From Nodosilinea sp. FACHB-131 (lineage in GTDB: Bacteria; Cyanobacteriota; Cyanobacteriia; Phormidesmidales; Phormidesmidaceae): DNA of 64,000 nt. The position numbers and the translations under genes are program-made. Under the pieces are notes generated by a model. The model did not search any database, was not told where the DNA came from, and was given only the letters and a program-made list of their open reading frames with translations. Below are positions 10,290 to 21,037 of the stretch, piece after piece; position 1 is the first letter of the stretch; each line of letters begins with the position of its first letter. The stretch lies in contig NZ_JACJOF010000016.1 in the NCBI RefSeq assembly GCF_014695395.1, positions 1 to 64,000 of the forward strand. The letters are read 5' to 3'.

Positions 10290-11648
10290 GTGAGTGTGGC
10301 AAGGGACGAGGTGTTTACTCGCTATATTGAGAACGTTCAGACTCGGGTGACAGCGCTCTATGAAGAAACCCGGCAGCTTCCTTCAAACGAATCTCAGCAA
10401 TTAACCACAGCTCTATTAGAAGAACTGGGCCTAGCGGTAGAAGAACTCCACATTGCCGAAGAAGAGCTGTTGGCCCAAAACGAACAGCTCGCTGCCGCTA
10501 ACCACATTGCTGAGGCCGAGCGCCAGCGCTACCAAGATCTGTTCAATTTTGCCCCCGATGGCTACCTCGTAACCGATATGAACGGGGTGGTGCAGGAGGC
10601 AAATCATGCTGCCGTTGCGTTGTTGAATCTGGAGCAGCCCTACCTGATTGGCAAACCCCTGGTTACCCATGTGCCCCCGGCTGAACGGGTGTCCTTTCGC
10701 ACGCTGCTGAGCCAGATTGCGACGTCGCATCGCATCGAGGGCTGGGAGCTGACGCTACAGAGGCGGAAAGCCGCCACCATCACCGTCTCGACAACGGTTG
10801 AGATCGTCAAAGATATCGAAGGCAATGGGGTTGGGCTGCGATGGCAAATGCGGGATATTAGCGATCGCAAAAGAGCCGAAGCCACCCTGCGCCAGCTGCA
10901 AGTTGAAAATCTAGAACTGTTAGAGGCCGATCGCCTGAGAGCGCAGCTGCTAGCCACGGTTTCCCACGAGCTCAAAACGCCGATGAACGCCATTTTGGGG
11001 TTTTCTCAGGTGTTGATGGCGCAGTTTGACCCCAAGCGCGACTCTAAAACCGTCAGGATGGTGCAGCGCATCTTTCACAACGGGCAGCACCTGCTCGGCA
11101 TGATTGAAGACATGCTCAATTTTTCGCGGCTGCGGGCAGACCAGGTTGAGCTAAAGCTCGAACGCTTTGACCTGACCGACCTGATTGTGACCACCATAGA
11201 CGAACTGGACACGTTGGCCGACCAAAAGGCCCTGACTCTAGAGGCAGACCTGCCCGATCGCCCCGTGGTGGTGGTCAACGATCGCAACCGGCTGCGGCAA
11301 ATTTTGACCAACCTGATCTCCAACGCCATTAAGTTTACCGATGCCGGGCGAATTGTGGTGAGCCTGGACCCCCTGCCCGCCGACCGACTGCTGCTACAGG
11401 TCAAAGACACGGGCTGCGGCATCAGCCTAGAAGATCAGCCCCACATTTTTCAAGAGTTTTGGCAGGTGCACGACGCTCGCAGCGCCGCCAAAGGCACCGG
11501 CTTGGGGCTGGCCATTGTCTATGCGTTGGTGCAGGTCATGCAGGGCACGATTACCGTCAACAGCGAGCTAGACCAGGGCAGTGAGTTCACCATTGAACTA
11601 CCGCAGAGCGTCAGCCCCAGCCAAGAGACCCCCGCCATCTGCCGCTGA
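10290..11648 (+). CDS. PAS-domain sensor histidine kinase (cytoplasmic)
   Basis: A 452-residue kinase without membrane segments. An N-terminal coiled coil (about 30-75, rich in EELHIAEEELLAQNEQL) is followed by a PAS domain from about 78 (QDLFNFAPDGYLVTDMNGVV), the HisKA H-box SHELKTPMNAILGF with His226, then the HATPase: N-box NRLRQILTNLISNAIKFT, G1 KDTGCGIS and G2 GTGLGLAIVYALV. All catalytic motifs are intact. The start is GTG at 10290 with a purine-rich GAGAGGGGG ribosome site just upstream. There is no response regulator next to it. The CheB and CheR-PAS genes that follow (from 12539) have a similar coil-plus-PAS style, so they may share one pathway (inference). Confidence 0.93.
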   Translation: MSVARDEVFTRYIENVQTRVTALYEETRQLPSNESQQLTTALLEELGLAVEELHIAEEELLAQNEQLAAANHIAEAERQRYQDLFNFAPDGYLVTDMNGVVQEANHAAVALLNLEQPYLIGKPLVTHVPPAERVSFRTLLSQIATSHRIEGWELTLQRRKAATITVSTTVEIVKDIEGNGVGLRWQMRDISDRKRAEATLRQLQVENLELLEADRLRAQLLATVSHELKTPMNAILGFSQVLMAQFDPKRDSKTVRMVQRIFHNGQHLLGMIEDMLNFSRLRADQVELKLERFDLTDLIVTTIDELDTLADQKALTLEADLPDRPVVVVNDRNRLRQILTNLISNAIKFTDAGRIVVSLDPLPADRLLLQVKDTGCGISLEDQPHIFQEFWQVHDARSAAKGTGLGLAIVYALVQVMQGTITVNSELDQGSEFTIELPQSVSPSQETPAICR

Positions 11649-11651
11649 GCG

Positions 11652-12266
11652 CTAGCCGCGCACTTTTGTGGTGACTTCGGCTACCCGCTGCCCCAGGGTG
11701 CGGGCGATCGCCAAATCTTCTGGCTGGGGCTGGAGTTCGCCCTGGCCACCGGTGATGGTGCTGGCCCCATAGGGGGTGCCGCCTCGGGCCTCGGTGTGAA
11801 TCATGCCGGCGGTTGAGTAGGGCACGCCCACCACGAGCATGCCCAGGTGCAGCAGGGGCACCATCATGGTGAGCAGGGTGGTTTCCTGGCCGCCGTGGGT
11901 CGAGGCGGTGGCGGTGAAGACCCCGGCAGGTTTGCCCTCCATGTCGCCGTTGAGCCAGAGGCTGGCGGTTGAGTCAAACAGCTGCTTCATCTGGGCGGTC
12001 ATGTTGCCGTAGCGGGTGGGCGAGCCAAACACCACGCCGTCAGCTTGTTTGAGGTCGTCTACGGTGCATACCGGAATCTGCTGCTGCTGCTCTCGCACCG
12101 CGCGGGCGGCCTCGTTTTGGTCAATGATTTGGTTGACAGCGTCGAACTCCTGCACCCGGCGCAACACCACCTCTACCCCGGCCACCTGCCCCGCGCCCTC
12201 GGCCACCGCCTGGGCCAGCTTCAGGGTGTGGCCATACATAGAATAGTAGACGACCAAAACTTTCAT
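11652..12266 (-). CDS. wrbA: NAD(P)H:quinone oxidoreductase WrbA
   Basis: A 204-residue flavodoxin-like enzyme that reduces quinones by two electrons using FMN. Diagnostic segments are the N-terminal FMN loop YYSMYGHTLKLAQAVAEGA, FGSPTRYGNMTAQMKQLFD, and the long WrbA-specific TASTHGGQETTLLTMM. Length is typical. It is convergent with the PAS kinase (stop codons 3 bases apart) and divergent from the CheB gene, so it is its own transcription unit. Confidence 0.96.
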   Translation of the reverse strand: MKVLVVYYSMYGHTLKLAQAVAEGAGQVAGVEVVLRRVQEFDAVNQIIDQNEAARAVREQQQQIPVCTVDDLKQADGVVFGSPTRYGNMTAQMKQLFDSTASLWLNGDMEGKPAGVFTATASTHGGQETTLLTMMVPLLHLGMLVVGVPYSTAGMIHTEARGGTPYGASTITGGQGELQPQPEDLAIARTLGQRVAEVTTKVRG

Positions 12267-12538
12267 AAATTCTCCAAATTTCGGCGTTTTAGCGCGTCAG
12301 GTCAAGGTTGCTCGCTCCTGTTAATGCTAATGCTGCGGGCACGGGTTGACAATTTTTATCTCTCCAGAGGGTGATTTTGGGCGATCGCGCCCTCGGCAAA
12401 ACGGCGGCCCTCAAAGGCTAGCGGTCTAACCATATACAGGCCCAGGGGAGATGCTGATCTGCGACGGTTTAGTTAAGCTTTGAATTTGGAGAAACTGTTG
12501 AACTAGTTGTTTGTGGACGCCGCTGGTAGGAGCAGATT

Positions 12539-13615
12539 ATGACCAATTGTCGTGTTGTTGTCATTGGTGCTTCAGCCGGTGGAGTTGAAGCGTTGATGCA
12601 GCTAGTTGAACAACTACCCCCTCAGCTCAACGCCGCGGTTTTTGTAGCAGTCCATTTTCCGGCTGGTAGTGTGAGCTTTTTGCCTGATATTCTTAGCCGT
12701 GCCAAAACCCTGCCCGCCGCCCATCCCCACAGCGGCGAAACCATTCAGCCAGGGCGCATCTATGTGGCCCCGCCCGACTATCACCTGCTGGTTCATCGCG
12801 GCACCATAGAGCTGAACCGAGGCCCTAGGGAAAACGGCCATCGCCCCGCCATCGACGTGCTGTTTCGTTCGGCGGCTCAGGCCCATGGCCCCTACACCGT
12901 GGGGGTGGTGCTCACGGGCATGTTAGACGACGGCACAAATGGTCTACAGGTGATTAAGGCCGAGGGCGGGGTCGCCCTCGTGCAAGACCCTGACGAGGCG
13001 ATGTTTAGAAGCATGCCTGAAAATGCGATCGCCCATGTCGCCGTCGATCAAGTGCTGCCAATTACCGCTCTAGCCAACCACATTGTGGATTTAGTGGCAG
13101 ACGCCAGGCAGGAATCTCCTATTACGCAGGAATCTCCTATTACGCAGGAATCTCCTATTACGCAGGAATCTCCTATGACCAGTAATCCACTCGTACCCGA
13201 AGAGAAAATTGTTGCCGAAGAGAAAGCCGCCGCCGAAGAGGGCCAGCGACCCAACGCTGCCTCTCCATTCACCTGCCCCGACTGTGGTGGCGTGCTGTGG
13301 GAACTGCGGGACGCCTACAGTCTGCTGCGGTTTCGCTGCCACATCGGCCACGCCTACTCCCTCGACAGTTTGATGACGCTCCACGGTGAAAACCTAGAGC
13401 GCGCCCTGTGGACGGCGGTGCGGGCGATCGAAGAGCGAGCCGCCCTGTCTCGCCGGCTGATGGCCCACGCCCATCAGCAAAATCGAACCCAATCAGCCGA
13501 ACAGTTTTTAAAACGGGCTCGGGAGGCTGAAGAAGACGCTCGCCTCGTCAGGCAGCTAATTCTCAATCAGAAAGAAATTCATCTTCAAGGAGACACTATT
13601 CCTGAGCCTTTTTAG
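12539..13615 (+). CDS. CheB-type methylesterase with C-terminal zinc ribbon
   Basis: A 358-residue protein. Residues 1-185 form a CheB methylesterase domain with the catalytic Ser loop GASAGGVEAL, a His in AVHFPAG and the Asp in TGMLDDGTNG. There is no receiver domain. Residues 191-214 are four tandem copies of QESPIT (last copy QESPMT), encoded by 18-base repeats. A charged linker leads to a zinc-ribbon-like C-terminal domain from Cys246 (CPDCGGVLWELRD, then FRCHIGHAYS) and a helical end. An AGGAG ribosome site precedes the ATG. CheB enzymes remove methyl groups from chemoreceptor glutamates; no receptor gene is in the window, so the target is unknown. Confidence 0.92.
   Translation: MTNCRVVVIGASAGGVEALMQLVEQLPPQLNAAVFVAVHFPAGSVSFLPDILSRAKTLPAAHPHSGETIQPGRIYVAPPDYHLLVHRGTIELNRGPRENGHRPAIDVLFRSAAQAHGPYTVGVVLTGMLDDGTNGLQVIKAEGGVALVQDPDEAMFRSMPENAIAHVAVDQVLPITALANHIVDLVADARQESPITQESPITQESPITQESPMTSNPLVPEEKIVAEEKAAAEEGQRPNAASPFTCPDCGGVLWELRDAYSLLRFRCHIGHAYSLDSLMTLHGENLERALWTAVRAIEERAALSRRLMAHAHQQNRTQSAEQFLKRAREAEEDARLVRQLILNQKEIHLQGDTIPEPF
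13109..13180 (+). repeat. 18-bp tandem repeat inside the CheB gene
   Basis: Four head-to-tail units of caggaatctcctattacg: 13109, 13127 and 13145 are identical, and the unit at 13163 differs at the end. The unit is a multiple of three, so changes in copy number lengthen or shorten the linker without changing the frame. Confidence 0.95.
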
Positions 13616-14086
13616 ACGGGGTAAACACGTTTTCTAAGCATCTAAGCGGGCGTTTTAACAGCGATTTTCTGTAGCTTTAACTGCCGACTAATTCTTCCTA
13701 CTCCTGTCAAAGAGACAGTTAAAAGTCTTTCTTTTAAGAGAGGTTAAGGAAATCTTTACTTTCGTTTGGGAAGCAGAACTTTTTCTAAATAAGCCGCTGG
13801 AATCATCGACCTCTGGATAGAAGAGAGACGAAATCAACGTGACTGTTTATTTCATTTAATTAACTAAAATTAGAGCGCTGTCTCTGGCGGCAGAACGAGT
13901 CTAAACTGATTCAGAGGTGGGCATCTGTACCCCTTTGCTAGCTGCTTGGCGGAACTGGCGATCGCGCTCCAACCCTTTCGAAGTTGAGCCGTGCCTTACC
14001 ACAGTCTATTGTTTGCCCTGGTTAGGCCTAGGTCGTCATTTCGCCGTCATGCTAGACCAGACACTGGGCTATTGGCCTAAAACCCT
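13616..14086. other. Intergenic region between the two CheB genes
   Basis: About 470 bases, AT-richer than the flanks, with no ORF I can support. A small inverted repeat (ttaaaag / cttttaa, 13719-13737) is the only structure seen. It probably holds the promoter for the CheB-CheR pair. Confidence 0.5.
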
Positions 14087-14698
14087 ATGAACGCTTCGCC
14101 GTCCTCGGTGCCATCTTCAGCGGCGCGGTTTGACATCGTGGCGATCGCGGCCTCCGCTGGGGGCATCAAAGCGTTGGCGCAACTGCTGCCCCAGCTACCC
14201 GCCGATTTTGCCGCCGCCATTGTCCTGGTCATTCACCTTGACCCCAACATGGCTAGCCTGCTGCCCCAAGTCTTAAAGCCTATGACGTCGCTCACCGTCA
14301 AAGACGCCAAAACCGGAGAGTTGTTGCAGGCCGGGACGATTTACACAGCCCCCCCCGACCACCATCTGCTGATTGGGGCCGGTCGCACCCTGCGCCTGAC
14401 CCACACCGCCAAAGTAAATTACTCTCGGCCCGCCGCCGACTGTACTCTAGTATCGGTGGCAGAGCGCTTTGGGGAGCGGGCGATCGCCGTCGTTCTAACC
14501 GGCTATGGTCGGGATGGCGCTGCCGGCATTCAGGCCATTAAGCAGCACGGCGGTCGGGTGATTGTGCAAGATCCGGCCACCGCCAATGTGGCCAGCATGC
14601 CCCAAACGGCCATTGATACCGGCCAGGTAGACTGGGTTTTGCCCCTAGAGACCATTCCCCAAACCCTGATCAACCTGGTGCAGCAAGCAAGGATGTAG
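14087..14698 (+). CDS. CheB-type methylesterase (single domain)
   Basis: A 203-residue CheB catalytic domain without receiver or ribbon. Visible are the Ser loop AIAASAGGIKALAQLL, the His in VLVIHLDPN, IYTAPPDHHLLI, and the Asp-containing LTGYGRDGAAGIQAIK. The stop (TAG, 14696-14698) is followed after one codon by the GTG of the CheR gene in the same reading frame. In many bacteria these two domains are the start of one long CheB-CheR-PAS protein. An AAGGA just before the stop serves as ribosome site for the next gene, so the two are translationally coupled. Confidence 0.92.
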   Translation: MNASPSSVPSSAARFDIVAIAASAGGIKALAQLLPQLPADFAAAIVLVIHLDPNMASLLPQVLKPMTSLTVKDAKTGELLQAGTIYTAPPDHHLLIGAGRTLRLTHTAKVNYSRPAADCTLVSVAERFGERAIAVVLTGYGRDGAAGIQAIKQHGGRVIVQDPATANVASMPQTAIDTGQVDWVLPLETIPQTLINLVQQARM

Positions 14699-14701
14699 TC
14701 T

Positions 14702-16552
14702 GTGGTCTCAAATTTAGAAAATTCTGACGATGCCGCCTTTAGAACTTTATTAGACTACGTTCGCAGCACTCGGGGGTTTGACTTTACGGGCTACAAGCGG
14801 CCCAGCCTGATGCGGCGCGTCACCCGCCGCATGCAGACAGTCGGTGTCACCGGTTTTAGTGACTATATCGACTATTTAGAGGTGCATCCCGATGAATTTC
14901 AGCAGTTGTTCAACACACTGCTGATCAACGTCACCGCATTTTTTCGCGATTCCACCAGCTGGGATGCCCTGCGCACCGACGTCTTACCGGCAATTTTTCG
15001 CTCCAAGGCAGAAACCGAGCCCATCCGAGTCTGGAGCGCTGGCTGCGCCTCCGGCGAGGAAACCTACTCCATTGCCATAATGCTGGCAGAGCTGCTGGGC
15101 CTTGAGCAGTTTCAGGCCAGAGTCAAAATCTATGCCACCGATCTAGACGAAGACGCTCTGGCAACGGCGCGCCAGGCCACCTACTCTGGCCACAAGATAG
15201 ACGGCCTATCAGAGATTCAGCTCAGCACATTTTTTGACTACAAAGACGAAATCTACACCTTTAGCAAAGAGCTGCGGCGATCGGTCATTTTTGGCCGCCA
15301 CGACCTGGTTCAAGATGCCCCGATCTCCAAGATTGACCTGCTGCTGTGCCGCAACACGTTGATGTATTTCAACGCTGAAACCCAGGCTCGAATTTTGACC
15401 CGGTTTCACTTTGCCCTCAATGACAATGGCTATCTGTTCTTAGGCAAAGCCGAAATGCTGCTCACCCACAGCAAACTCTTTAGCCCAGTGCAGCTAAAGG
15501 GGCGCATCTTTACCAAGGTGCCTCAGTTGAGCGGGCGCGATCGCCTGCTGATTATGGCTCAAACCGGTCACGAAGGCACTGCCGATGACCTGACCGACCA
15601 GCTCCGCCTGCTAGAGACCGCCTTTGACGTCAGCCCGGTGGCCCGCATTGTGCTCAAGCACAACGGCGTGTTGGTCTTGGCCAACCAGCGTGTCAAGGTG
15701 CTCTTTGGTCTCTCCCAGCAGGATATCGGCCGCCCCCTGCAAGATTTAGAACTCTCCTACCGCCCCGTAGAGCTGCGCTCTTGCCTAGAAGAAACCTACG
15801 AACGCCGCCGCACCGTCAACCTGCCCGATGTCGCCTGGCAAAATCCTCGAGGTGATTCTATTTTCTTCGAGGTGCAGATCACCCCGCTGTTTGGCAGCGA
15901 CAGCGCCATTCTCGGAGCCAGCATTAGCTTTGTCGATATTACCCAGTTCAAACGGTTGCAGGCCGAGCTAGAGCACGCCAACCAAGAACTAGAGATGGCC
16001 TACGAAGAGCTGCAATCCACCAACGAAGAACTAGAAACCACCAATGAAGAGCTGCAATCCACCAACGAAGAACTAGAAACCACCAATGAAGAGCTGCAAT
16101 CCACCAACGAAGAGTTGGAAACCATGAACGAAGAACTGCAATCGGCCAACGAAGAACTCCAAACCCTCAACGAAGAACTCCAGCGCAGCAGCGGCGACCT
16201 CAATCAAAGCAACACGTTTTTAGAATGTGTATTCACTAGCCTCAAGGGCGGCGTGGCGGTGGTCAACCGCGACCTGCAAGTGCAAATTTGGAACAACAAA
16301 GCCGAAGACCTCTGGGGCCTGCGCCCTGAAGAAGTCGTCGGCCAATATTTCCTCAACCTAGATATGGGTCTGCCGGTAGAGCAGCTGCGCCAGCCCATTC
16401 GCGACTGCCTAACCTCAGCCGGCGTCGGCTCCGTCGAGCTGACCATCGAGGCCGTCAACCGCAAGGGCCGCAGCCTGAGCTGCCACATTACCTGCACCCC
16501 TCTGGTAAACGCCAAAAAGCAGGTGCAGGGCGTAATCCTAATTATGGAATAG
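14702..16552 (+). CDS. CheR-type methyltransferase with PAS, heptad coiled coil and second PAS
   Basis: A 616-residue protein starting at GTG. Residues 1-270 are CheR: an N-terminal helical domain (YKRPSLMRRVTRRMQTVGV), the SAM-binding IRVWSAGCASGEETYSIA and LLLCRNTLMYFN. A PAS domain follows (about 305-415; AFDVSPVARIVLKHNGVLVL). Residues about 420-500 are a highly regular coiled coil of repeated EELQSTNEELETTN units. A second PAS closes the protein (about 505-616, SLKGGVAVVNRDLQVQIWNN). Related fusions often continue into a histidine kinase; here the chain stops after the PAS, so output may pass to a separate kinase such as the one at 10290 (inference). Confidence 0.92.
   Translation: MVSNLENSDDAAFRTLLDYVRSTRGFDFTGYKRPSLMRRVTRRMQTVGVTGFSDYIDYLEVHPDEFQQLFNTLLINVTAFFRDSTSWDALRTDVLPAIFRSKAETEPIRVWSAGCASGEETYSIAIMLAELLGLEQFQARVKIYATDLDEDALATARQATYSGHKIDGLSEIQLSTFFDYKDEIYTFSKELRRSVIFGRHDLVQDAPISKIDLLLCRNTLMYFNAETQARILTRFHFALNDNGYLFLGKAEMLLTHSKLFSPVQLKGRIFTKVPQLSGRDRLLIMAQTGHEGTADDLTDQLRLLETAFDVSPVARIVLKHNGVLVLANQRVKVLFGLSQQDIGRPLQDLELSYRPVELRSCLEETYERRRTVNLPDVAWQNPRGDSIFFEVQITPLFGSDSAILGASISFVDITQFKRLQAELEHANQELEMAYEELQSTNEELETTNEELQSTNEELETTNEELQSTNEELETMNEELQSANEELQTLNEELQRSSGDLNQSNTFLECVFTSLKGGVAVVNRDLQVQIWNNKAEDLWGLRPEEVVGQYFLNLDMGLPVEQLRQPIRDCLTSAGVGSVELTIEAVNRKGRSLSCHITCTPLVNAKKQVQGVILIME
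16004..16129 (+). repeat. 42-bp repeats encoding the CheR coiled coil
   Basis: Two identical 42-base units (16004-16045, 16046-16087) and a diverged third encode two heptads each (EELQSTNEELETTN). Nucleotide identity rather than just protein similarity points to recent duplication. Confidence 0.9.
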
Positions 16553-16663: not shown

Positions 16664-16753
16664 GCTGGAGCAGCCTGCATCCAGCAGCAAAGAAGCGACA
16701 GATTAGGATAGAAACAGACAACAGCCGCAAACGGTTTTGCTTGAGGAGCGACC

Positions 16754-17496
16754 ATGGTTCAAGCTCAGCCCCGCACTGGCCCCCCCTGCCCGCCGACTTT
16801 GTACTGCCCGACGATCCGGCGGAAAACATTCAACAGCCGCCCCTAGCCGCCGCCCTCACCGATGCCCTAGGAGCGGCCCAGCGAATTCGGTCTGAGATGC
16901 TAATTGGCTCCAACTTCGGTTTGGTGGTCAGAATGAACGGTGAAATTGTTGTCAAAGCACCCGACTGGTTCTACGTGCCTCGGGTCAACCCCTACCCTCC
17001 AGAGTTAGTTCGCCGCAGCTACACCCCCCACTTGGAAGGCGACCCCGTAGCGGTGGTTATGGAGTTTCTTTCAGCGGCAGACAATGGTGAGCTGTCGATT
17101 CGAACCACTCAGCCCTACGGCAAGCTCTACATCTATGAGCAAATTTTGCGAATCCCCACCTACGTCATCTACGATCCAGCGGTTGCCAAGCTCGAAGTAC
17201 GGTGCCTAGAAGCGGGGCATTACGTATCCCAACTCCCCAATGACCAAGGCCGCTTTTGGATTCCGTCACTAGACCTTTTTCTAGGGGTTTGGCCAGGAGA
17301 ACGCTTGGCCCAAACCCTCAACTGGCTGCGCTGGTGGGATGCCGAGGGCAACCTGCTGCTCTGGAGTTCTGAACAAGCCGAGACAGAGCGCCAGCGAGCT
17401 GAGATCGAACGCCAGCGAGCTGAGACAGAGCGACAGCGGGCCGATCGCCTAGCCGCCCTACTCCGTGCCCAGGGGATTGATCCAGACCAACCCTAG
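16754..17496 (+). pseudogene. Uma2 family (DUF820) protein, apparent 1-bp frameshift near the 5' end
   Basis: Uma2 proteins are PD-(D/E)XK nuclease-fold proteins, abundant in cyanobacteria and of uncertain role. The body is intact: PPDFVLPDDP-like start, IVVKAPDWFYVPRV, GDPVAVVMEFLSA, IPTYVIYDP, and a C-terminal charged coil of repeated AETERQR units. The natural start, ATG at 16754 with GAGGAG just upstream, reads MVQAQPRTGPP and then leaves the main frame at a run of seven C at 16779-16785; one more C would restore it. The main frame can only start from the TTG at 16741, within the same ribosome site. This is either a sequencing/assembly indel, a real mutation, or TTG use. Confidence 0.75.
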
Positions 17497-18439: not shown

Positions 18440-21037
18440 CTACATCCCCGGTGTAGCCAGGTTGCGGAAGCGGGTAAACTGCGGCTCGAACAGCAGCTTG
18501 ACAGTGCCGGTGGGGCCGTTGCGGTGCTTGGTGATGATGATCTCGGCAATGCCGCGATCGGGGGTGTCGGGGTCGTAATACTCTTCGCGGTAGAGCATCA
18601 TAATCAGGTCGGCGTCCTGCTCGATCGCACCCGAGTTATGGGACACAATGCCGTCAGCTAGCCAGGAAGCAGGCCCCGGTACAGTCAGGTCATACACGGG
18701 TTCTTCCCCCGCAGGCTCAATAGAAAGCACTTCATCCCAGAAAATATCTGCTGCGGCAATTTCCTTAAGGGATTCATTGGCCAGAATCTCTGCGTAGCTG
18801 AGGAGTGTTTGCCGAGAAGGAGCAAATTTGAAGTGTGATGTCCCGCCGTAGGAGGTGCCTCGCAAGGCTGCCATTTGGCGTTGACTAATGCCCTGGGCTC
18901 TCATATCAGCTTTGACTCGATCAAAAACTTCCTTGGGCAAGGTGTCTCGGTTGGGATTTGAGACGATGCCCTCAAGTTTGAGCCGTAGAGCAGCAGCGGG
19001 TTCTACCCTAGGGCCAAAAGCCCCAACCTGAGCTAAAAACCTCAGCTGGTTGACGCTACCCTGAACGTTGACGGTAAAGCACTGACTTGGCTGCCAAAAC
19101 ACGGAGGCCCAAATGCCGAGCCTTAGGAGTAGAGCGGCAACATCGCGGGCCAAGCCCTCACTGCTGGTGGAGAAGAATACGGCATCTCCCCCTCTGCCCT
19201 TCCGTACAGAGATACAGCCATCGGTCGCCCACAGGTGTTTTAGGAGAAGACCGACCTGCTGATTGGAGAGCTGAAACACTTCGGCAGGAATGCGTTTCTC
19301 CCGAGAAGGCTGGTTAAAGATGCCAAGCTGCCGTAACCAACAATTTACCCCGGCAGGGCGCCAGCGATTGCCGTTACCAGAGATCAAAAGCTGATGCCAC
19401 TGCCCTCTGCCCCTGTAGCGCTTTACCTCACAGCCAAATTCTTGCTCAGCAGCTAATTTGACGATCTGGCTATTGTCTTCGGAGCTGGTGGTGTATCGAA
19501 GGGGCTGCCCCTTGAGGTAGCTACCATCGCCAATTAGCTGCCCTAGTAGTGCCAGCCTTAACTCAGGCCAGGTCTCGGCAACAGCAGGTTCGGGCAGATG
19601 CTGAGCCACACCAATACGGCTCCCCTTCTTCAACTGCTCTAATCGCTGCCAGCCATCGAGGGTATAGAGTCGGTGCTTTTCAGTCGCGCGAATTTTGCGT
19701 CCGCTGGCTGTGGTCAACTCATAAATTGGGCGAGTACCCACCTGCCAAACTAAGTCGGCCTGAGCCTGGGTCAACTTACCCTGTTCATCTAAACTCACCA
19801 CGTCTGGGGTGCTGCCTACCAACTCCTGAATCGGTACTCGTCGACCGTCTGCGAGGACAACCAGGGTATCGCCAGTGACGCACTCCCGTAGGTCGCTCAT
19901 CATTGGACGCTTGTTGGTGCGCGATTCGACGCCCCGGCTGAGCTGGGAGAGGGCGATGATCGGTACGTTGAGTTCGCGGGCGAGACCCTTGAGCGATCGC
20001 GTCATCTTCGACAGTTCCTGCACCCGGTTGTCGCCGCCACCCTCCATCAGCTGGAGATAGTCGATCAAAATCAGCCCCAGGGCACCGCCCTGCTCGGCCT
20101 GGAGGCGGCGGCAGCGAGAGCGAATCTCGGTCACTGAAATGCTGGGGGTATCGTCGATGAAAATCGGCATCTGGGAGAGAATGCTGATGGCGTGGCCCAG
20201 TTTTTCCCACTCGTTCTGGGCAATGCGTCCGGTGCGCAGGCGACTGCTCTCCATCTCCACTTCGCTAGAGAGCAGGCGATAGACCAGCTGCACTTTAGAC
20301 ATTTCTAAGCTATAAATAGCTACAGGAAGCTTCTGTAAAGCAGCGATATTGCGAGCTATATTGAGCACGAAGCTGGTCTTTCCCATTGACGGACGGGCAG
20401 CGGCGATAATCAGGTCAGAACGCTGAAAACCCTGGGTCATGGCGTCTAGGTCATAGAAGCCGCAGGGGATGCCGGGCAGCACAACACCGAGCGATCGCTG
20501 CTCGATCTCTGAAAACGTCTCAATCAAAATATCGGACGTGGAGGTCAACCCCCCCTGGGGCCGCGACTGGGTAATGCCAAACAGCCGCTGCTCCGACTGA
20601 TCCATCACATTCTCAATGGGCAGTGTAGTGTCGTAGCCCAGCTGAGAAATTTCGCCCCCGGTTTGAATCAGCAGGCGGCGGGTGTACTTGTCCATCACCA
20701 GGGTGGCGTACTGGTCAATGTTGGCGGCGCTAATGGTGCGATCGACCAGCTGAGCCAAGCGGGTTTGGCCACCCACCTGTTCGAGCTTGCCGTTGTCCTT
20801 CAGCCACACGGCGATCGTCATCAGATCGGCAGGCTGCCCCTTGGCGTGGAGGGCCAGCGCCCCCTTATAAATATCCCGGTGGGCACCGATGTAGAAGGCG
20901 TCGGGGGTGAGAATCTCCATCACCCGGTTAATGGCTTCAGGGTCGAGCAAAATACCGCCCAGAATGGCCTCTTCGGCCTCGATGTTTTGGGGTGGCAGGC
21001 GATCGCTGACCGCATCAAACTTGAGATTCTGAACCAT
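18440..21037 (-). CDS. dnaB: Replicative DNA helicase DnaB containing an intein
   Basis: DnaB is the hexameric helicase of the replication fork. The N-extein (residues 1-385) holds the N-terminal collar (PPQNIEAEEAILGGILLD) and the RecA core with Walker A in ARPSMGKTSF and Walker B in LILIDYLQL. A 416-residue intein occupies residues 386-801, and the C-extein (802-865) resumes at SGAIEQDADLIM. Splicing would give a helicase of 449 residues, the usual length. The junctions RE/C and HN/S are both intact for splicing. ATG start with a GGAGG-rich leader. It is the only replication-fork gene here. Confidence 0.97.
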   Translation of the reverse strand: MVQNLKFDAVSDRLPPQNIEAEEAILGGILLDPEAINRVMEILTPDAFYIGAHRDIYKGALALHAKGQPADLMTIAVWLKDNGKLEQVGGQTRLAQLVDRTISAANIDQYATLVMDKYTRRLLIQTGGEISQLGYDTTLPIENVMDQSEQRLFGITQSRPQGGLTSTSDILIETFSEIEQRSLGVVLPGIPCGFYDLDAMTQGFQRSDLIIAAARPSMGKTSFVLNIARNIAALQKLPVAIYSLEMSKVQLVYRLLSSEVEMESSRLRTGRIAQNEWEKLGHAISILSQMPIFIDDTPSISVTEIRSRCRRLQAEQGGALGLILIDYLQLMEGGGDNRVQELSKMTRSLKGLARELNVPIIALSQLSRGVESRTNKRPMMSDLRECVTGDTLVVLADGRRVPIQELVGSTPDVVSLDEQGKLTQAQADLVWQVGTRPIYELTTASGRKIRATEKHRLYTLDGWQRLEQLKKGSRIGVAQHLPEPAVAETWPELRLALLGQLIGDGSYLKGQPLRYTTSSEDNSQIVKLAAEQEFGCEVKRYRGRGQWHQLLISGNGNRWRPAGVNCWLRQLGIFNQPSREKRIPAEVFQLSNQQVGLLLKHLWATDGCISVRKGRGGDAVFFSTSSEGLARDVAALLLRLGIWASVFWQPSQCFTVNVQGSVNQLRFLAQVGAFGPRVEPAAALRLKLEGIVSNPNRDTLPKEVFDRVKADMRAQGISQRQMAALRGTSYGGTSHFKFAPSRQTLLSYAEILANESLKEIAAADIFWDEVLSIEPAGEEPVYDLTVPGPASWLADGIVSHNSGAIEQDADLIMMLYREEYYDPDTPDRGIAEIIITKHRNGPTGTVKLLFEPQFTRFRNLATPGM
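18635..19882 (-). mobile_element. DnaB intein with LAGLIDADG homing endonuclease
   Basis: Begins with Cys (CVTGDTLVVLADG, block A), has the block B-like TEKHRLYTLDGW, and ends VSHN followed by Ser, the full set for protein splicing. The central part carries two LAGLIDADG-type helices: LLGQLIGDGSYL and LLKHLWATDGCIS, with acidic Gly-Asp-Gly / Thr-Asp-Gly ends. It therefore looks like a complete homing element rather than a mini-intein. The insertion point, between SDLRE and S-IEQDADL, is the same site as the well-known Synechocystis DnaB intein. Confidence 0.95.

Follow-up and report, generated by a model that had tools for sequence, protein, structure and literature searches.

Protein glutamate methylation by CheR and CheB is already known. 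The methylation sites of methyl-accepting chemotaxis proteins (MCPs) are described as pairs of Glx residues that are seven residues apart and are modified mostly on the second residue (PMC2535941). The nearest proven precedent for a target other than a chemoreceptor is the RsbM/RsbK system of Bacillus cereus. There, the S-helix of the hybrid kinase RsbK is the substrate of RsbM, which in this way represses sigma-B and has no partner esterase (PMC4574943); the genomic association of RsbK with CheR was noted earlier by de Been and colleagues (cited in PMC12848376). RsbK was the only non-MCP target that we found in the literature searched. In this study, we analyzed a stretch of 64,000 nucleotides from the cyanobacterium Nodosilinea sp. 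FACHB-131 (contig NZ_JACJOF010000016.1, positions 1 to 64,000; hereafter the window), which encodes within 6 kb a PAS histidine kinase, two CheB proteins, and a CheR protein that carries a coil between two PAS domains (CheR-PAS-coil-PAS). This system differs from RsbM/RsbK by its CheBs and by the CheR-borne coil. We propose, with about as much ground for acceptance as for doubt, that it is a receptor-independent, reversible glutamate-methylation module acting on signaling helices, chiefly the coil.

The window system and RsbM/RsbK share a CheR-type methyltransferase gene near a sensor kinase gene, a neighborhood that is recurrent in the window system, and RsbM provides an example of a methyltransferase that modifies the signaling helix of a kinase and sets its activity. 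However, RsbM has no cognate methylesterase, whereas the window has two CheBs; RsbK has the domain order CHASE3-HAMP-GAF-S-helix-HK-REC, whereas the window kinase is PAS-HisKA-HATPase (a kinase on contig C41 of the same genome has the RsbK order); and the window CheR bears PAS domains and a coil. RsbM/RsbK acts through a phosphatase of the PP2C type and a partner switch that controls a sigma factor. PP2C was not found among the eight window proteins scanned for domains, and a SpoIIE phosphatase was seen only in the relative L072. Fused CheB-CheR-coil-PAS(-kinase) proteins, present at 11 of the 14 plasmid loci fetched and twice in this genome, have the same domains with an EEL coil C-terminal to CheR. 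In the window, by contrast, CheB, CheR, and the kinase are separate polypeptides, and the coil, with its roughly ten heptads, has greater length and regularity. Similarity to the Escherichia coli Tsr and Tar helices with their CheR and CheB lies in the Glx pairs every seven residues, the enzyme families, and the retained catalytic-type residues; the window differs in having no CheW/CheA partner, no pentapeptide, no strict consensus, and no REC domain on CheB. CheR-TPR proteins of chemosensory pathways with alternative functions (e.g., Frz) also combine CheR with an added regulatory domain, as stated in PMC3447774, but they are found in chemosensory clusters; the CheR-TPR of this genome lies with MCP, CheA, and CheW on contig C5, and the window CheR does not.

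CheR and CheB genes outside chemotaxis clusters are common and are annotated as encoding chemotaxis proteins, yet the papers searched report no substrate for this class. A precise candidate substrate, with EE pairs in a near-invariant coil that the enzyme carries on its own polypeptide, turns a vague question into one that can be tested directly. If the proposal is true, reversible glutamate methylation would be a general adaptation route of bacterial kinases rather than a speciality of chemoreceptors. In the openly licensed papers searched (CC0, CC BY, and CC BY-SA), no methylation substrate is reported for CheB-CheR-PAS-coil proteins, which is no proof of novelty, and the coil motif strings are absent from the part of that literature that was searched.

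We computed the gene content of the locus, its recurrence as a set, the intactness of the enzyme residues, the extreme conservation of the coil, and the linkage of the coil to CheR. No part of the CheR-PAS-coil-PAS protein is as strongly conserved as the coil. Among 27 such proteins, chosen by the coil string (28 were in the size range, and only L070 was omitted by the string), mean pairwise identity of the coil was 0.861 over residues 430–495 and 0.946 in the best 35-residue window; the CheR domain reached 0.633, its S-adenosylmethionine (SAM)-binding stretch 0.816, and the PAS domains 0.49 and 0.495. When all 28 proteins were analyzed by heptad position, identities were 0.955 (a), 0.931 (b), 0.898 (c), 0.653 (d), 0.929 (e), 0.991 (f), and 0.973 (g); the core d position was the least conserved, and conservation was highest on the faces that a coiled coil normally leaves free. 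The helix of the kinase, used as a control, looked ordinary in this respect (b 0.21, c 0.34, e 0.50). At synonymous sites, the codons of the coil have diverged no less than those of the other domains (Leu, 0.25 versus 0.24–0.26), which, together with the identity at all positions, argues for selection at the protein level that extends to every face of the helix. To judge from these alignments, such all-face conservation is what a recognition surface would show. A DNA-level cause of the conservation, such as recent transfer or repeat homogenization, was rejected for the family because the synonymous codons have diverged. The coil of the window gene itself is encoded by 42-bp tandem repeats (15978–16176, 4.7 copies, 85% matches) and represents local DNA homogenization on a protein pattern that is fixed across phyla with diverged codons. 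AlphaFold2 (AF2) predicted a single helix of 99 residues (414–512) with a predicted local distance difference test score of 88–95 over residues 421–490 and 72–86 at the ends. No solved structure was found for the coil or the kinase module, the only matches being weak ones to the coil.

The coil is also closely linked to CheR. Its profile gave three matches in the genome of Nodosilinea sp. FACHB-131, all three in CheR proteins. We then used the profile on 146 cyanobacterial genomes and fetched 57 stretches, which covered all of the matches outside the own genome; matches above 50 bits were regarded as strong. CheR was present in 43 of the 44 strong coil frames, and the remaining one (L206) has CheR or CheB in an adjacent frame. 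Among the weaker frames, 3 of 18 contain CheR, and the other 15, which have no relaxed motif (described below), are low-complexity repeats or other coils. In the first set of loci, one open reading frame (ORF) of 192 residues carries the coil without CheR (L104); a truncated CheR ORF is located upstream of it, and it seems to be a broken copy. R82, N218, and Y222 of CheR are kept in all 95 CheR domains aligned (not de-duplicated; short alignments were dropped).

On the predicted helix, EE pairs recur every seven residues through about ten heptads, as in an MCP-type acceptor helix. A relaxed pattern, [ASTG][ASTG]x[EQ][EQ]xx[ASTG][ASTG], which was picked after both helices had been seen, finds two sites in Tsr and two in Tar. 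At least three such motifs occur in 30 of 35 CheR ORFs versus none of 745 others; in the cyanobacterial set the corresponding counts are 39 of 46 CheR-coil frames versus 1 of 217 others, the one being L206.

The two window CheBs match CheB_methylest only in the domain scan and have no REC domain; therefore, neither would be switchable by CheA phosphorylation in the usual way. They are 41% identical to each other, a value low enough to place them in separate lineages rather than in a recent duplication. Ser, His, and Asp residues of the catalytic type, which we take to be the CheB catalytic triad, are invariant in all seven CheB domains of the genome. The zinc-ribbon pattern C..C...C..GH is found in 19 of 20 CheB ORFs longer than 300 residues, and a fold search with the AF2 model of the CheB-ribbon protein returned CheB structures as the sole strong matches. 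The linker between its CheB domain and zinc ribbon consists in part of QESPIT repeats, encoded by an 18-bp tandem repeat (13108–13187, 4.5 copies).

The ORFs and domains match the claim that 6 kb hold the genes for a PAS kinase, two CheBs, one of them with a zinc ribbon, and a CheR-PAS-coil-PAS protein, and the claimed lack of CheA, CheW, and MCP in the cluster agrees with their absence from the eight window proteins scanned; in the genome-wide search, neither MCP nor CheW matched anywhere on the contig of the window (C8). The cheR gene starts three bases after the stop codon of the single-domain cheB gene, and the two are very likely cotranscribed. The 6 kb do not form one operon, because a WrbA gene lies on the opposite strand and the two cheB genes are 471 bases apart; the kinase gene is 3.1 kb upstream of cheR with other genes in between. 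Promoter and terminator scans of the window gave no more than the level of shuffled sequences, and Rfam had no match in the window.

To examine recurrence, the first 187 residues of the kinase were compared with genome contigs. In the best 80 of 207 confirmed loci, CheB or CheR was present in the examined flanks of 34 (CheB in 29 and CheR in 30), all of which are lower bounds since many contigs are short. Across 57 genomes of the order, 40 of the 72 module matches (23 of 48 merged loci) have CheR at a distance of no more than 10 kb, which is beyond chance, as about 0.8 would be expected (about 0.011 per match). A typical order in many cyanobacteria is CheB-ribbon, CheB, CheR-PAS-coil-PAS, and kinase, with the kinase first or last, and the core of CheR-coil and kinase is also present in Poribacteria (L070), Acidobacteria (L093), and Hydrogenedentota (L126). 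The idea that the cluster is dispersed was not borne out: the separate-gene arrangement recurs as a gene set across cyanobacteria, which rules out a dispersed or decaying cluster. The output attached to the N-terminal module varies, being a histidine kinase in the window, L070, L093, and L126, a GGDEF domain on contig C16, and a SpoIIE phosphatase in L072; a REC-LuxR regulator follows in L093 and L126.

The genome contains in total 5 CheR, 7 CheB, 5 MCP, and 9 CheW matches. Contig C5 carries a complete Che pathway consisting of a REC-CheB, a CheR-TPR, a double CheW, an MCP, and CheA (TPR, REC, and CheA were read by eye); its CheB has 354 residues with the esterase domain from about residue 169, the REC part again being read by eye. 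A pentapeptide-repeat-like protein of 279 residues, also read by eye, is encoded between cheB and cheR-TPR there (L027:5454–6293). Contig C20 has three MCP-CheA clusters without CheR or CheB, and contig C41 has an orphan MCP without either gene adjacent. Elsewhere on C41 (L030:3337–10620), a CHASE3-HAMP-GAF-coil-HK-REC-REC-REC kinase, a coil-less CheR, a CheB, and a hybrid kinase are encoded in a row, and this locus is RsbK/RsbM-like with an added methylesterase. Contig C2 has a lone CheB-ribbon gene, and fused CheB-CheR-coil-PAS proteins of 1382 and 1007 residues are encoded on C19 and C16. The domains had been thought to be fused elsewhere and separate here; they are separate in the window, but the presence of two fused CheB-CheR proteins in the same genome means that the fused and split forms coexist. 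Among 10 annotated plasmid stretches, 3 have ferritin-like genes near CheR or CheB-CheR (L137, L139, and L146; Azospirillum, Nitrobacter, and Asticcacaulis), hinting at stress islands.

All five CheRs of the genome lack a segment of 3–4 residues that is present in E. coli CheR and that presumably marks pentapeptide-dependent CheRs. A genome-wide check of the receptors found the C-terminal docking pentapeptide on none of the five MCPs, which is weak evidence because such a pentapeptide is present in about 10% of bacterial chemoreceptors (PMC7390727). A target that is not a chemoreceptor, as had been suggested without naming any, is the better reading for the window enzymes, given the cluster without receptor, CheA, or CheW, the MCPs without pentapeptide, the separate REC-CheB and CheR-TPR on C5, and one genome (L072, described below) with CheR beside the module but no MCP or CheW match, but the evidence is indirect. 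The conserved coil is the strongest candidate for the target.

According to the mechanism that we propose, CheR would methylate glutamates of the seven-spaced EE pairs on the coil between its own PAS domains, in cis or across a dimer, and the N-terminal EEL helix of the partner kinase may also be methylated. The REC-less CheBs would strip the methyl groups. Methylation would neutralize charge and tighten the helix, its loss would loosen it, and the passage of the PAS signal to the kinase would change as a result; the outcome would be a graded, resettable, MCP-like adaptation without MCP, CheW, or CheA. We infer that the coil is methylated, that CheB reverses this, and that the kinase is tuned by it. 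The most likely reading is a receptor-independent, reversible methylation module whose first candidate substrate is the coil and whose second is the kinase helix. A narrower version, which we hold tentatively as possible though short of probable, gives CheR its own multi-site acceptor ladder: CheR would write and REC-less CheB would erase methyl esters of glutamates on the ten-heptad coil between two PAS domains, providing a many-step, resettable kinase memory without a chemoreceptor. In this version, the fused CheB-CheR proteins of other phyla would follow the same principle, and MCP-style adaptation would be a module that ordinary signaling proteins share in general.

Several points weigh against methylation of the coil. 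It was observed in no case, and the AF2 placement of the coil relative to CheR is unreliable (predicted template modeling score of 0.41). The coil-CheR linkage could reflect shared descent of one architecture, and catalytically degenerate CheRs numbered 0 among the 95 domains, hence there is no case of co-loss of the coil and catalysis. At least three relaxed motifs occur in just 4 of 11 fused plasmid CheR-coil ORFs (none of 76 others). The strict enteric consensus is [ASTG]2-xx-[EQ]2-xx-[ASTG]2, and it has no match in the CheR protein or its coil as against all four sites in Tsr. Moreover, 468 of the 5040 residue orders of the heptad reach the count of the relaxed pattern, so that match alone is weak. 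The motif match was accordingly downgraded as proof of methylation by the permutation control and the failure of the strict consensus, and since both results weaken the motif, the case rests on conservation and CheR linkage.

Alternatively, CheR and CheB might act in trans on the EEL helix of the neighboring PAS kinase, as in RsbM/RsbK with an esterase added, and the coil would be a docking or dimerization surface. We consider this unlikely. It is in line with the proximity of CheR to 40 of 72 module matches and with the coil-less CheR and CheB beside the kinase of RsbK-reported domain order on C41. All three EE pairs of the kinase helix are kept in 25 of 40 CheR/CheB-linked versus 14 of 47 unlinked proteins, a contrast that is not corrected for relatedness. 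Further support comes from L072, an Armatimonadaceae metagenome-assembled genome of about 5 Mb, in which the sole CheR found is coil-less and overlaps the ORF of a module-PAS-SpoIIE phosphatase (L072:9079–11383). Neither MCP nor CheW matched in this genome, whose completeness is not established, while both were present in five of the six genomes searched in this comparison; L072 therefore speaks for a target other than an MCP, but it favors the helix of the module over the coil. However, in the close relatives L056 and L057, which offer a natural counterpart to mutants, the kinase helix retains its EEL heptads although CheR is absent from the flanks examined (the L056 contig lacks a CheR ORF, and the CheB-ribbon ORF of L056 has only 192 residues), and on this ground the kinase helix was downgraded as the sole target. 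In addition, the exposed positions of the kinase helix vary, and action in trans leaves the high conservation of the coil unexplained.

That the enzymes serve the chemoreceptors of the genome, e.g., the orphan MCP or any of the three MCP clusters of the pilus type, all of which lack a CheR and CheB of their own, is unlikely in our estimation. The C20 clusters and the C41 MCP lack adjacent CheR and CheB, and all 37 coil-bearing cyanobacterial genomes checked have MCPs, which also counts against a non-chemoreceptor target; cyanobacterial genomes without MCP were sought as proof of such a target, and 0 of 37 were found. On the other hand, no MCP has the pentapeptide, the CheR loop is shorter, and the C5 pathway has its own enzymes. 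PMC4758948 reports chemotaxis-like pilus systems but no CheR or CheB in Synechocystis, our control Synechococcus elongatus gave an MCP match but no CheR match, and L072, with the above limit on its completeness, has CheR and the partner module without MCP or CheW. Finally, the coil may be only an exceptionally constrained signaling helix, in a dimer or a higher bundle between the PAS domains, with CheR and CheB as ligand-sensing or scaffold domains without turnover. The coil has a PAS domain on either side and belongs to a single predicted helix of 99 residues, which fits this, inter-PAS segments being a common site of signaling helices (PMC1592074). Nevertheless, the residues of the SAM site and of the esterase are retained, the exposed faces vary in ordinary dimer coils but not in the window-type coil, and no strong coil match was found away from CheR, which makes this reading quite improbable.

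The features of the locus are listed in Table 1.

Table 1. Positions of the genes and elements discussed, numbered from the first letter of the window
Feature	Position	Strand	Basis or details
PAS histidine kinase, cytoplasmic sensor	10290-11648	+	N-terminal helical module; PAS 10527-10859; HisKA 10938-11138; HATPase_c 11277-11606
Four heptad-spaced EEL/EQL motifs in the N-terminal helix of the kinase; candidate methylation target in trans	10419-10490	+	
WrbA-type NAD(P)H:quinone oxidoreductase	11652-12266	minus	Between the kinase and CheB-ribbon genes
REC-less CheB with C-terminal zinc ribbon and helical hairpin	12539-13615	+	ORF and domain scan
Zinc ribbon CPDC...CHIGH	13274-13351	+	AF2: predicted strands, then a two-helix hairpin
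Single-domain REC-less CheB	14087-14698	+	ORF and domain scan
CheR-PAS-coil-PAS	14702-16552	+	CheR_N 14735-14890; CheR 14927-15496; PAS1 ~15599-15946; coil 15983-16201; PAS2 16232-16546
Proposed methyl-acceptor array, about ten heptads of the NEELQST/NEELETT type	15983-16201	+	Conservation, CheR linkage, predicted helix, heptad pattern

A WrbA-type gene occupies the same place in the relatives L055 and L056. Directly downstream of the cheR gene is a gene for a putative nuclease of the Uma2 family (16741–17496), which is kept in L055 and has a 21-bp tandem repeat near its C-terminus. Farther along the window, the gene for the DnaB replicative helicase (18440–21037, minus strand) is split by an intein that contains a homing-endonuclease domain of the LAGLIDADG type (Pfam matches Intein_splicing and LAGLIDADG_3).

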